Below are positions 1,650 through 40,798 of a stretch of 64,000 nucleotides of DNA, piece by piece. Both the position numbers and the translations under genes were made by a program. The notes under the pieces were generated by a model. The model was not told the origin of the DNA, did not search any database, and saw only the letters and a program-made list of their open reading frames with translations. Position 1 is the stretch's first letter. Every line of letters begins with the position of its first letter. Origin of the DNA: Pseudophaeobacter flagellatus (lineage in GTDB: Bacteria > Pseudomonadota > Alphaproteobacteria > Rhodobacterales > Rhodobacteraceae); contig NZ_JAJQRG010000001.1 of the NCBI RefSeq assembly GCF_021228235.1, positions 620,001-684,000 of the forward strand, in the 5' to 3' direction.

Positions 1650-2975
1650 TCATCCTAGCGCGGCTAATCCCTGGCTGGCCGCGTGCACTACGAGGCCGAG
1701 GCCAGCCATGATCAGCAAGAGCCAGAACAGGCGCCCTTTGAGCAGATATGCCAGGGGAGGCGCAGCCAGAACCAGCAACGCCGCCGTCGGATCCCAGCTG
1801 TGCAGGCTGGGCCAGGGCATGGCAAGCGGGCCGGAGCCCAGCACACTGACCTGTTGGAACAGCACATGCAGGGTGAACCAGATCATGAGATTGAAGATCA
1901 CCCCGGTGACCACGGCGGTGATGGATTCCAACGCTGAGGCCAGCCGTGGTTGCGCGGCCAGGCGTTCCACATGCGGCGCTGCGGCAAAAATCCACAGGAA
2001 ACACGGCATGAAGGTTGCCCAGAGTGCAGTGATCCCCGTGGCAAGAAAGAGCGCAACGCCGCCCTGTTTCAACCCGGCCAGCATGGCGACAAACTGGGTG
2101 ACCAGGATCAGCGGTCCCGGCGTGGTCTCTGCCAAACCCAGGGCATCAATCATCTCACCGGCGCTGATCCAGTGATGCTGTTGCACCACCGCCTGGCTCA
2201 TATAGGCGAGCACCGCATAAGCGCCGCCAAAACTGACCACGGCGAGCTTGGCGAAGAACCAGCCGATTCCGGCAAGAAACTCTGCGCCTGCAAGGCTAAG
2301 CAGCACCAGCGGTAGCAGCCAAAGCGTGCCCCAGATCACAAGGCTGCGCAGGCTCTGGGTGGTTGTGTTGTGGCGCGCGGCAGGAGGGGCAAGGGATGGC
2401 GCGGCAGGGGGGGCGGAAAAGGGCGGGGCCGGGCGGCACAGCCCCCAGACTGCGGCAGCAAGGATCACCACTGGAAAGGGCAGCCCAAAGGCAAAGAGCG
2501 CTATAAAGCCCAATCCGGCCAGCCACCAATCCTGGTGCCGTTTCAGGGCCTTATGGCTCAATCTCCACAGTGCTTGCAATACGATGACCACAACTGCGGC
2601 TTTGACGCCAAGAAAGGCGGCCTGCACACCTGGGACACTGCCAAACTGAGCGTAGAGCCAGACCAGTAGCGCAATGACACAGGCACCGGGTAGAACAAAC
2701 AAGAGCCCGGCCAATAGCCCGCCGACCGTGCCGCGCAACCGCCAGCCTGTATAGGTACACAGCTGCATGGCTTCGGGGCCGGGCAGCAACATGCAAAAGG
2801 ACAGTCCGCGCAGGAAGCTGTCTTCGTCCAGCCAGGGGCGCTCTTCGACCAGTTCTCGGTGCATCACTGCGATCTGGGCGGCCGGGCCACCAAAGCTCAA
2901 CAAGCCGATATGGCCAAAGACCCGCCACATCTGCCGCCAAGATACTGTTGTCATGTTCTTCATCCCAGTGCCCAT
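1650..2975 (-). CDS. chrA: Chromate transporter, ChrA family
   Basis: An inner-membrane carrier of the CHR family, which exports chromate. It is about 440 residues long with two homologous halves: the first carries IGLLSFGGPAAQIAVMHRE and the second KLAVVSFGGAYAVLAYM. Each half also has a PGP-type loop (LLPGPEAMQL and ETTPGPLILV), the duplicated pattern expected of long ChrA proteins. Roughly ten to twelve hydrophobic segments are visible. The start is uncertain among ATG 2975, 2963 and 2954; none has a clean ribosome site. It lies between sspB and ssrA, all on the minus strand. The substrate in vivo is inferred from family only. Confidence 0.85.
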   Translation of the reverse strand: MGTGMKNMTTVSWRQMWRVFGHIGLLSFGGPAAQIAVMHRELVEERPWLDEDSFLRGLSFCMLLPGPEAMQLCTYTGWRLRGTVGGLLAGLLFVLPGACVIALLVWLYAQFGSVPGVQAAFLGVKAAVVVIVLQALWRLSHKALKRHQDWWLAGLGFIALFAFGLPFPVVILAAAVWGLCRPAPPFSAPPAAPSLAPPAARHNTTTQSLRSLVIWGTLWLLPLVLLSLAGAEFLAGIGWFFAKLAVVSFGGAYAVLAYMSQAVVQQHHWISAGEMIDALGLAETTPGPLILVTQFVAMLAGLKQGGVALFLATGITALWATFMPCFLWIFAAAPHVERLAAQPRLASALESITAVVTGVIFNLMIWFTLHVLFQQVSVLGSGPLAMPWPSLHSWDPTAALLVLAAPPLAYLLKGRLFWLLLIMAGLGLVVHAASQGLAALG

Positions 2976-3159
2976 CGCGTTTGGGTAAAGAACATCGCTG
3001 TCGTCAAGTCCAGCCCAAAGCCTGCCACGGTCTGAACCAAAGGGGGCAGGCCATGCAAGAGTCGGCGGTACAAACCGATTTAGCAACTTTTCTTGGGGGG
3101 AAGTGCAGGTTTCTGTTGCCAGGTACCTGCGAACCCCGCCTTACGCTGCTAGGCATAAG

Positions 3160-3413
3160 GACTTAATTTTCGGTTTTCCGAACTGCTTACGCAGCCAGGG
3201 CTACCGGAGCACGATTGTCATTTGCAATTGTACAGTTTTCGCCGATAACGGTGGCAGACAGCCGAGACAAAGCTAACCCCTTTAGACGTCCGTCGATCCT
3301 GTTTCGACCCCATGATGCCCAAATGAAGCATGTTTGGTGGAGTCGCCGGGTACCGCCCCCGGGTCCGATCCGTGTATTACGAGCGCATTTATGTCCATAG
3401 TTCCCGAGGGAAC
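3160..3413 (-). ncRNA. ssrA: tmRNA, circularly permuted two-piece form
   Basis: This RNA rescues stalled ribosomes and adds a degradation tag. On the minus strand a frame at 3225-3187 reads ANDNRAPVALAA and then stops, a typical alphaproteobacterial ssrA tag ending in LAA. Upstream, the coding piece begins at about 3311 with GGGGTCGAAACAGGATCGAC, the usual tmRNA 5' end. Its GGGGTC pairs (one G-U) with GACTCC of the acceptor piece, which lies upstream and ends in encoded ACCA at 3335. CCGGG and CCCGG form its T-stem. About 23 bases (3312-3334) separate the pieces and would be excised. The 5' boundary is inferred from the promoter and the 3' boundary is approximate. The product acts with SmpB (not in this window), SspB and ClpXP. 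Confidence 0.9.
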
Positions 3414-3419
3414 ATCTAA

Positions 3420-3448
3420 TATATAGGCCAATACCGGGGGGATTTGAA
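3420..3448 (-). promoter_or_regulatory. Probable sigma-70-type promoter of ssrA
   Basis: On the minus strand TTCAAA (3448-3443) and TATATA (3425-3420) are separated by 17 bases. A start about seven bases downstream, near 3413, would give an acceptor piece of about 79 nt ending at the encoded CCA at 3335. Inferred from spacing and motif only. Confidence 0.5.
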
Positions 3449-3518
3449 GTAGGGATGCAGCATTTTTTGTTTGCGGTTGCGGTTTTCTGTCTGCAGCAAA
3501 AATAGGCCGCGCAGAAAC

Positions 3519-3577
3519 GGGGCCAGCCCCCGCCGGTGCGGAGCACCGGCGCCCCCGGGATATTTGGTGCCAAATGA
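3519..3577 (+). repeat. Intergenic palindromic repeat, copy A
   Basis: The element consists of GGGGCCAGCCCCCG, a variable insert that is itself a hairpin (CCGGTGC and GCACCGG), then CCCCCGGGATATTTG, two variable bases and GCCAAATGAA. Both conserved ends recur in the same order at 38089-38135 on the other strand. It lies between the end of the GntR gene and the ssrA promoter. Its role is unknown; a transcription-end or RNA-processing element is possible. Confidence 0.6.
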
Positions 3578-3621
3578 ATACGGCAGAAAGACAAGGGGGC
3601 AAAGGGGGGGGGCGGCTGCGA

Positions 3622-4347
3622 TCAGGCGGAGCGCGCGTCGAAGATTGTTTTGGCCAGAAAAAGGGTTTCCTGTTCAAGCTGAACAAGACCACTGTCAGCC
3701 GCTAAGCCGTTGCCCGCTGCGATGGCATCCGCGATCCGGATATGCAGGGCGATAATTTTTGCCCGGTCGCGGGCCGAAAATGTTACAATGTTCATCAAGG
3801 GTTGCATGGCCTCGACAGCGCCGGCCAGCTGGTAGGAGAGCACCGGGTTGGCGGCCGCATCCACCAGGGCGCGGTGAAAGGCGACATCCGAGGCGCAAAA
3901 GGCCGCATCCGACAGATCTGGCTGGCTTTGGTGTTGAATTTCTGCCTGCATGATCGCCAGGTGCTCTGCCTTGCGTCTGTGGGCTGCAAGTGGGGCGCAG
4001 GCCCGTTCAAGCGCATAGCGCGCTTCGCAGGCCGTTTCAAAGCTGACGGCGTTCATGCTTAGCAGTAGGGTTGAGGTGGTGATATGCTGCGCATAGGCAT
4101 CCTTAAAATTGAGCCGGTTGACAAAGGCCCCCCCGGTGGCACCACGCTGGGTACGGATCAGCGACTGTGCCGCCAGCCGTTTGAGGGCTTCGCGCACGGT
4201 GGGGCGAGAGACCTGAAACTGCGCGCAGAGCTCGGCCTCTGAAGGTAGGCGCGCATCAACGATCAGATCGCCCTGGATGATGGCATCTTTGATCGCCTTG
4301 GCAATCTGGGCCGATAGGTCGTCGCGGCTTTGTGGGTTGATCTTCAT
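3622..4347 (-). CDS. GntR-family transcriptional regulator with FCD domain
   Basis: A DNA-binding repressor or activator of the FadR subfamily. Residues 10-75 form the winged helix (LPSEAELCAQFQVSRPTVREALKRLAAQSLIRTQRGATGG). Residues 95-230 form the all-helical FCD ligand domain, with the His residues of AFHRALVDA and LHIRIADAI in the places that normally bind a metal and an organic acid. It is divergent from acuI, with two palindromic sites between them, so it probably controls acuI and itself. As I recall, a GntR regulator (DmdR) sits beside dmdA-acuI in other roseobacters and responds to acrylate metabolites. Equivalence here is inference. Confidence 0.85.
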   Translation of the reverse strand: MKINPQSRDDLSAQIAKAIKDAIIQGDLIVDARLPSEAELCAQFQVSRPTVREALKRLAAQSLIRTQRGATGGAFVNRLNFKDAYAQHITTSTLLLSMNAVSFETACEARYALERACAPLAAHRRKAEHLAIMQAEIQHQSQPDLSDAAFCASDVAFHRALVDAAANPVLSYQLAGAVEAMQPLMNIVTFSARDRAKIIALHIRIADAIAAGNGLAADSGLVQLEQETLFLAKTIFDARSA

Positions 4348-39622: not shown

Positions 39623-40675
39623 TTATGAAATACGAATACGAGGGTTGAGGTAGACATAGCCGATGTCTGAAATCAGCTGCGTCACCAGCACAACAACTAC
39701 AGAGACGACAGAAATCGCCAGGAGCAATTCGATGTCGTTATTGCCGGCGGCTTCAACCAGGATCCAGCCAAAGCCTTTGTAATTGAAAAGGGTTTCCACG
39801 ATCACCACGCCGTTCAGCAACCAGGGGAACTGCAGCATGATGACGGTAAAGGGGGCGATCAGCGCATTGCGCAGCGCATGTTTCAAGATGATGTTGTGAA
39901 AGCTGACGCCCTTGAGTCTGGCGGTGCGGATATATTGCGCCGTCATCACCTCGGTCATCGAGGCCCGCGTCATCCGCGCGATATATCCCATACCGTAGAG
40001 CGCAATAGTCAGGACCGGCAGAAAGAAATTCTCAAAGGTCGGGTTCTCCATTGCGGATGTCGCTGTGCCCTTGAACCACTTCAGCCCCACGGTCGAAGAG
40101 GTAAAGATCGCAATCAAAATCACCCCAGAGACATATTCCGGCGTTGCGGTGGTCAGGATCGAAACAGTGGATAGGCTGCGGTCGGTTACCGACCCTTCAC
40201 GCATGCCTGCCAGCACCCCGATGATCAGCGCTGATGGGACCATGATCACCAGAACCCAAAGCATTAGATATCCGGTATTGCCCAACCGGACCGATATAAT
40301 GGACGCCACATCGTCTTTGAATCGGGTGGAATAGCCCCATCCGCCCTGCAGGATGCCGCAGAAGCGCGCTGCCTGATCTGCCTCGGACTCGGGCTGCGTG
40401 CCGGTGATGCATCGCCCGGTGACACCCTCTTCGGTGGTGCGGGTCCAGCCCGGCAAAGCGCCCAGCCATTGGCCGTATTTCACCACAGTCGGCTGCCCGT
40501 AACCGTTGTTGTTGAGCCAGCTGTTTACCGCCTCGTCGCTCATACGGAAATTGCCCTGGGTCTTGGCCAGTTTTTCCAGATTTGGTTCGAGGTTGGTTAA
40601 TACAAAAACGATGAACGTCAGGCATAGTGCCGTCAGGATCATCACGCCTGATCGGCGCAAAATGAACAATCCCAT
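39623..40675 (-). CDS. Peptide-type ABC transporter permease (DppB-like)
   Basis: 350 residues with about six membrane segments. The N-terminal start FILRRSGVMILTALCLTFIVFVL is typical of DppB/OppB, and the EAA loop is YIRTARLKGVSFHNIILKHALRNALIAP. A periplasmic insert of about 90 residues with two Cys (GRCITGTQPE and RFCGILQGG) separates the first and second helices. ATG 40675 follows AGGGA; an upstream in-frame ATG at 40726 is less likely. It pairs with the DppC-like gene 15 bases downstream. Confidence 0.88.
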   Translation of the reverse strand: MGLFILRRSGVMILTALCLTFIVFVLTNLEPNLEKLAKTQGNFRMSDEAVNSWLNNNGYGQPTVVKYGQWLGALPGWTRTTEEGVTGRCITGTQPESEADQAARFCGILQGGWGYSTRFKDDVASIISVRLGNTGYLMLWVLVIMVPSALIIGVLAGMREGSVTDRSLSTVSILTTATPEYVSGVILIAIFTSSTVGLKWFKGTATSAMENPTFENFFLPVLTIALYGMGYIARMTRASMTEVMTAQYIRTARLKGVSFHNIILKHALRNALIAPFTVIMLQFPWLLNGVVIVETLFNYKGFGWILVEAAGNNDIELLLAISVVSVVVVLVTQLISDIGYVYLNPRIRIS

Positions 40676-40798
40676 TGAGGTCCCTGTCTGTCTGGCGTCA
40701 AAACCGGCACCGTCGGAGCGGCGCATAGTTGATGGCTGAGGGAGAGCGCCCCTGCGCGCTAGATAGTGGCGCGCGGGGGCGGGTCCTGGCGGTGCGGG

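Follow-up and report, generated by a model that had tools for sequence, protein, structure and literature searches.

Anatomy and identity of the locus

In the window, a stretch of 64,000 nucleotides from Pseudophaeobacter flagellatus, a tmRNA gene lies on the minus strand, flanked by an ORF whose domains are GntR and FCD (3622–4347) and by one with chromate transporter domains (1650–3086), both on the same strand as the tmRNA. The gene is laid out in permuted order, with the acceptor half leading, an intervening segment following and the coding half last. A putative promoter occupies 3449–3420 and comprises CTT (3449–3447), the hexamer TTCAAA (3448–3443), a 17-bp spacer and a −10 hexamer, TATATA (3425–3420). 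The acceptor piece (3413–3335), whose 5′ end we place at 3413 from the position of the −10 hexamer, represents the tRNA-like 3′ half and consists of a 5′ hairpin, the T arm, the acceptor strand CGACTCC and an encoded ACCA that ends at 3335. The next 23 nucleotides (3334–3312) are presumably excised. The coding piece (3311–3102) opens with GGGGTCGAAACAGGATCGAC at 3311–3292 and includes the 5′ acceptor strand GGGGTCG, the tag reading frame ANDNRAPVALAA with its TAA stop (3225–3187), downstream helices and a 3′ terminal hairpin (3130–3105).

The Rfam model alpha_tmRNA (RF01849), which covers both pieces, matches the minus strand at 3452–3102 over all of its positions (1–355) with 307.6 bits (E = 7.8e-89; the gathering score is 50 bits), and the model tmRNA_permuted (RF04321) matches the same locus with 139 bits. 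ARAGORN, an independent method, places a tmRNA at 3430–3096 (−), reads the tag as ANDNRAPVALAA and prints the call as 'tmRNA*', which we take to be its sign for a permuted tmRNA gene. The full-length RF01849 match and the ARAGORN call uphold the gene type put forward in the original prediction, a permuted two-piece tmRNA gene, and we regard it as virtually certain that the locus is ssrA, encoding a two-piece tmRNA in the circularly permuted form usual in Alphaproteobacteria. The parts that had been read from the letters were likewise recovered: the minus-strand tag and stop with GGGGTCGAAACAGGATCGAC ahead of them, an acceptor piece upstream with an encoded ACCA, and a separation of 23 bases between the pieces. 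The gene had been called hidden, which is apt for a protein-only annotation but not for two standard RNA tools, the Rfam model and ARAGORN, both of which detect it.

This is a well-known gene type and an ordinary case of it, with nothing at the locus that is unusual or not already known. The window gene and alpha_tmRNA (RF01849) have in common the piece order, the acceptor stem, the encoded CCA, the tag frame, the intervening segment and the 3′ end, and we find no difference of substance; the 23-nucleotide segment and the tag ANDNRAPVALAA are both common among relatives. RF04321 is described as a broader model whose base pairs are confined to the shared tRNA domain (PMC11915505), and with it the window gene shares the tRNA-like domain in permuted order. 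The standard one-piece tmRNA (RF00023) presumably has the same function in trans-translation, but it is unpermuted.

Conservation, base pairing and boundaries of the gene

For comparison between genomes, we aligned the 30 best-scoring of 56 RF01849 matches (alignment A1), keeping duplicates; 11 of these 30 loci come from the genus of the window, and among the 26 weaker matches a relic in one genome, described below, was the only one inspected. The 7-bp acceptor stem that bridges the two pieces is paired at all seven positions in 30/30 loci. Pair 5 occurs as UA in 14 loci, CG in 13, GC in two and AU in one, which makes four compensatory types, and this compensatory change supports the pairing of GACTCC with GGGGTC proposed at the outset. 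Pair 3 is G-U in every locus, and G3-U70 is the alanine identity pair. Of the 73 pairs that RNAalifold gave for the 30 sequences, 26 show one or more compensatory changes; a small number of the 73 are doubtful, for example those joining promoter columns 26–28 to columns 362–364. Over the T arm and ACCA, conservation averages 0.95–1.0 per 10-base bin.

The tag frame runs through to a stop in all 30 loci, and all tags end in AA. They are of the same general type throughout, beginning ANDN in 25 loci, ANNN in four and GNDN in one. The ANNN-type tags (L011, L024, L030 and L036) have GCC as the resume codon. At the GNDN locus (L033, genome G019), the resume codon is GGC, and the resulting tag, GNDNRAPVALAA, lacks the usual initial alanine.

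At the 3′ side, the extent of the gene had to be revised. The proposed scan of the minus strand with alpha_tmRNA returned the full-length match given above, with its end at 3102 and not near 3160, which leaves the originally predicted end about 58 bases short. The ARAGORN call continues to 3096, and conservation among the 30 loci is high as far as approximately 3100 and drops beyond. One pair of the 3′ hairpin at 3130–3105 is UA in 15/30 loci and CG in the other 15 of the RNAalifold alignment. Because both the conservation and this compensated hairpin run past 3160, we delimit the gene with its promoter as 3449 to approximately 3102. A terminator scan of 2900–3800 found no intrinsic terminator at the 3′ end of the gene; it gave one terminator-like site, at 3688–3668 and away from the gene end, versus 1.1 expected from shuffled sequences.

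The proposed promoter with 17-bp spacing is present in the window as TTCAAA and TATATA at 3448–3420 and is conserved, but by hand count it has only 8/12 consensus matches, and a sigma-70 consensus scan of 2900–3800 reported no promoter-like site. Because that scan missed it, the promoter assignment rests on the comparison of genomes. CTT stands at match index 3 in 28/30 loci, and TANNT stands at index 27 in 29/30 loci and at index 26 in the remaining one. T5, T6, T28, A29 and T32 are invariant in A1, and the spacing from TT to TA..T is fixed across the 30 loci save for a one-base deletion in one of them. This conservation between genomes makes it believable that the upstream hexamers act as a promoter.

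The intervening segment measures 21–26 nucleotides in 26/30 loci. In the other four (L009, L016, L033 and L037) it reaches 37–46 nucleotides, about twice the usual length, and the predicted hairpins are longer. Among the 30 loci there are 24 different intervening sequences. All have a predicted hairpin, though only 11 of the 24 beat 95% of their shuffles; the window's own sequence has a value of 0.094. Changes in the stem look compensatory by eye, and the hairpin is absent from the RNAalifold consensus fold of A1. From these predicted folds we would suggest, tentatively and with the odds against it, that selection may act on the structure of the excised segment, which would form a small hairpin beside the acceptor stem and guide processing.

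An overlapping reading frame and the number of copies

The list of ORFs contains a frame of 135 codons on the minus strand (3594–3187) that starts with TTG, is open throughout and has ANDNRAPVALAA as its final 12 residues. This ORF is a spurious by-product of the tmRNA gene. The converse reading, in which the 135-codon protein is real and ends in ANDNRAPVALAA by chance, can appeal to the open frame itself and to the relatives in which the tag frame also stays open for at least 100 codons upstream (10/30 loci); nine of those ten are among the 11 loci of the window's own genus, which is the strongest argument for a protein and was put to the test in the comparison within the genus below. In 13/30 loci the frame is closed within 19 codons upstream. 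The ORF has no Pfam match at an E value of 0.001. In a comparison of 11 genomes of the window's genus, its own included and the other ten scored against the window, the part of the ORF outside the tmRNA (3594–3453) is 49% identical to the window (696/1420 cells, counted with gaps), with substitutions spread evenly over the three codon positions (216, 207 and 189). In contrast, the tmRNA with its promoter (3452–3102) is 93.4% identical (3277/3510 cells), and the two values together are the pattern of an RNA gene next to DNA under no constraint. We consider the chance of a real protein here to be negligible. The earlier warning that a false 135-codon protein might be called at this position was thus justified: the ORF is listed, lacks a Pfam match and behaves as non-coding sequence in relatives.

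It might also be argued that the window holds a decayed or displaced copy of the tmRNA while a working gene lies elsewhere, since relics do occur in the alpha_tmRNA family, as in genome G024, where one lies 7 kb from an intact gene. Against this, RF01849 has a single match in the whole genome (4.29 Mb, 99.99% complete), and the copy in the window retains an intact promoter, acceptor stem, ACCA, tag and 3′ hairpin. We give such a displaced copy almost no probability. RF04321 likewise has one match over the cut-off in the genome, at the same place as the RF01849 match. RF00023 has no match over the cut-off in the genome; its six sub-threshold matches (17.8–28.8 bits) overlap genes for tRNA-Ala, Gly, Leu, Pro, Ser and Cys as called by ARAGORN, and the model gives sub-cut-off matches in archaeal control genomes too. 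We therefore rejected an additional tmRNA gene, since outside the window locus none of the three models, RF01849, RF00023 and RF04321, reaches its cut-off in the genome. The original prediction had named as contrary to it the lack of a model match here together with a convincing ssrA elsewhere; the genome presents the opposite picture. The genome also encodes SmpB, for which TIGR00086 scores 171.8 bits (cut-off 119.1).

The G024 relic (L040, 1195–1346) is located 7 kb downstream of that genome's intact tmRNA. It consists of 40 bases, covering the T arm and the acceptor end and reaching into the intervening segment, joined to a 46-base part of the 3′ end. Neither part differs from the intact gene (100% identity), and the two overlap at CTTTGGG. 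Because the 40-base part runs straight into the 46-base 3′ end, the relic is without the coding half. An integrated island may have displaced this fragment, with its middle lost later.

Across 60 genomes searched, 36 of them from the same family as the window genome, RF01849 is present in 55, the window's own included, with 56 matches in all. The model has no match in G004, G032, G057, G058 and G059. In these five, RF04321 gives no match in four and 29.6 bits, below the cut-off, in G058, where an Rfam scan of the weak locus identifies genes for rRNA and tRNA but no tmRNA. Completeness is 91% for G058 and 71–86% for the other four, and at such values the tmRNA may simply be missing from those four assemblies.

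Genomic setting, proposed function and significance

In 56/80 loci of the GntR-type regulator, the tmRNA core pattern is found downstream of the regulator on the same strand, within the flank taken. In the other 24 the exact core pattern is on neither strand; six of these 24 are below full length, and variant cores escape the pattern. The closest relatives of the regulator among named genomes, at 76–78% identity, belong to Pseudophaeobacter, Leisingera and Roseobacter, which most probably places the bacterium carrying this ssrA in the Roseobacter group.

A further RNA family match in the window is Cis52_sRNA (Rfam), full length at 39868–40046 (+) with 136.2 bits and antisense to a 367-codon ORF at 39623–40726 (−). 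In Ruegeria pomeroyi, cis52 is described as antisense to a permease of an oligo/dipeptide ABC transporter (PMC4809877). The match in the window may largely mirror conservation of the coding gene.

By analogy with the known family and with work on Caulobacter, from which we infer transcription start, processing, charging and tagging, a single transcript would begin at approximately 3413 and contain the acceptor half, the 23-nucleotide segment and the tag-bearing half. RNase P and tRNA 3′-end processing would excise the segment, and the two resulting RNAs would stay joined through the 7-bp acceptor stem and additional helices. Alanine would be attached to the acceptor half via the G3-U70 pair, and the charged tmRNA, with SmpB, would enter stalled ribosomes and append (A)ANDNRAPVALAA to the unfinished protein, so that tagged proteins would end in AANDNRAPVALAA. 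Experiments in Caulobacter crescentus demonstrated that a permuted gene gives rise to a functional two-piece tmRNA (Keiler et al. 2000, cited in PMC3985003), for whose processing RNase P and tRNase Z are the proposed enzymes (PMC3985003). A 2025 database contains 11,946 unique permuted tmRNA sequences (PMC11915505).

To what is understood of trans-translation, the window gene adds nothing new. It does confirm that a permuted RNA gene can be recognized by a reader from raw sequence, and the gain for this genome is that its ssrA is named and a spurious 135-codon ORF is flagged.
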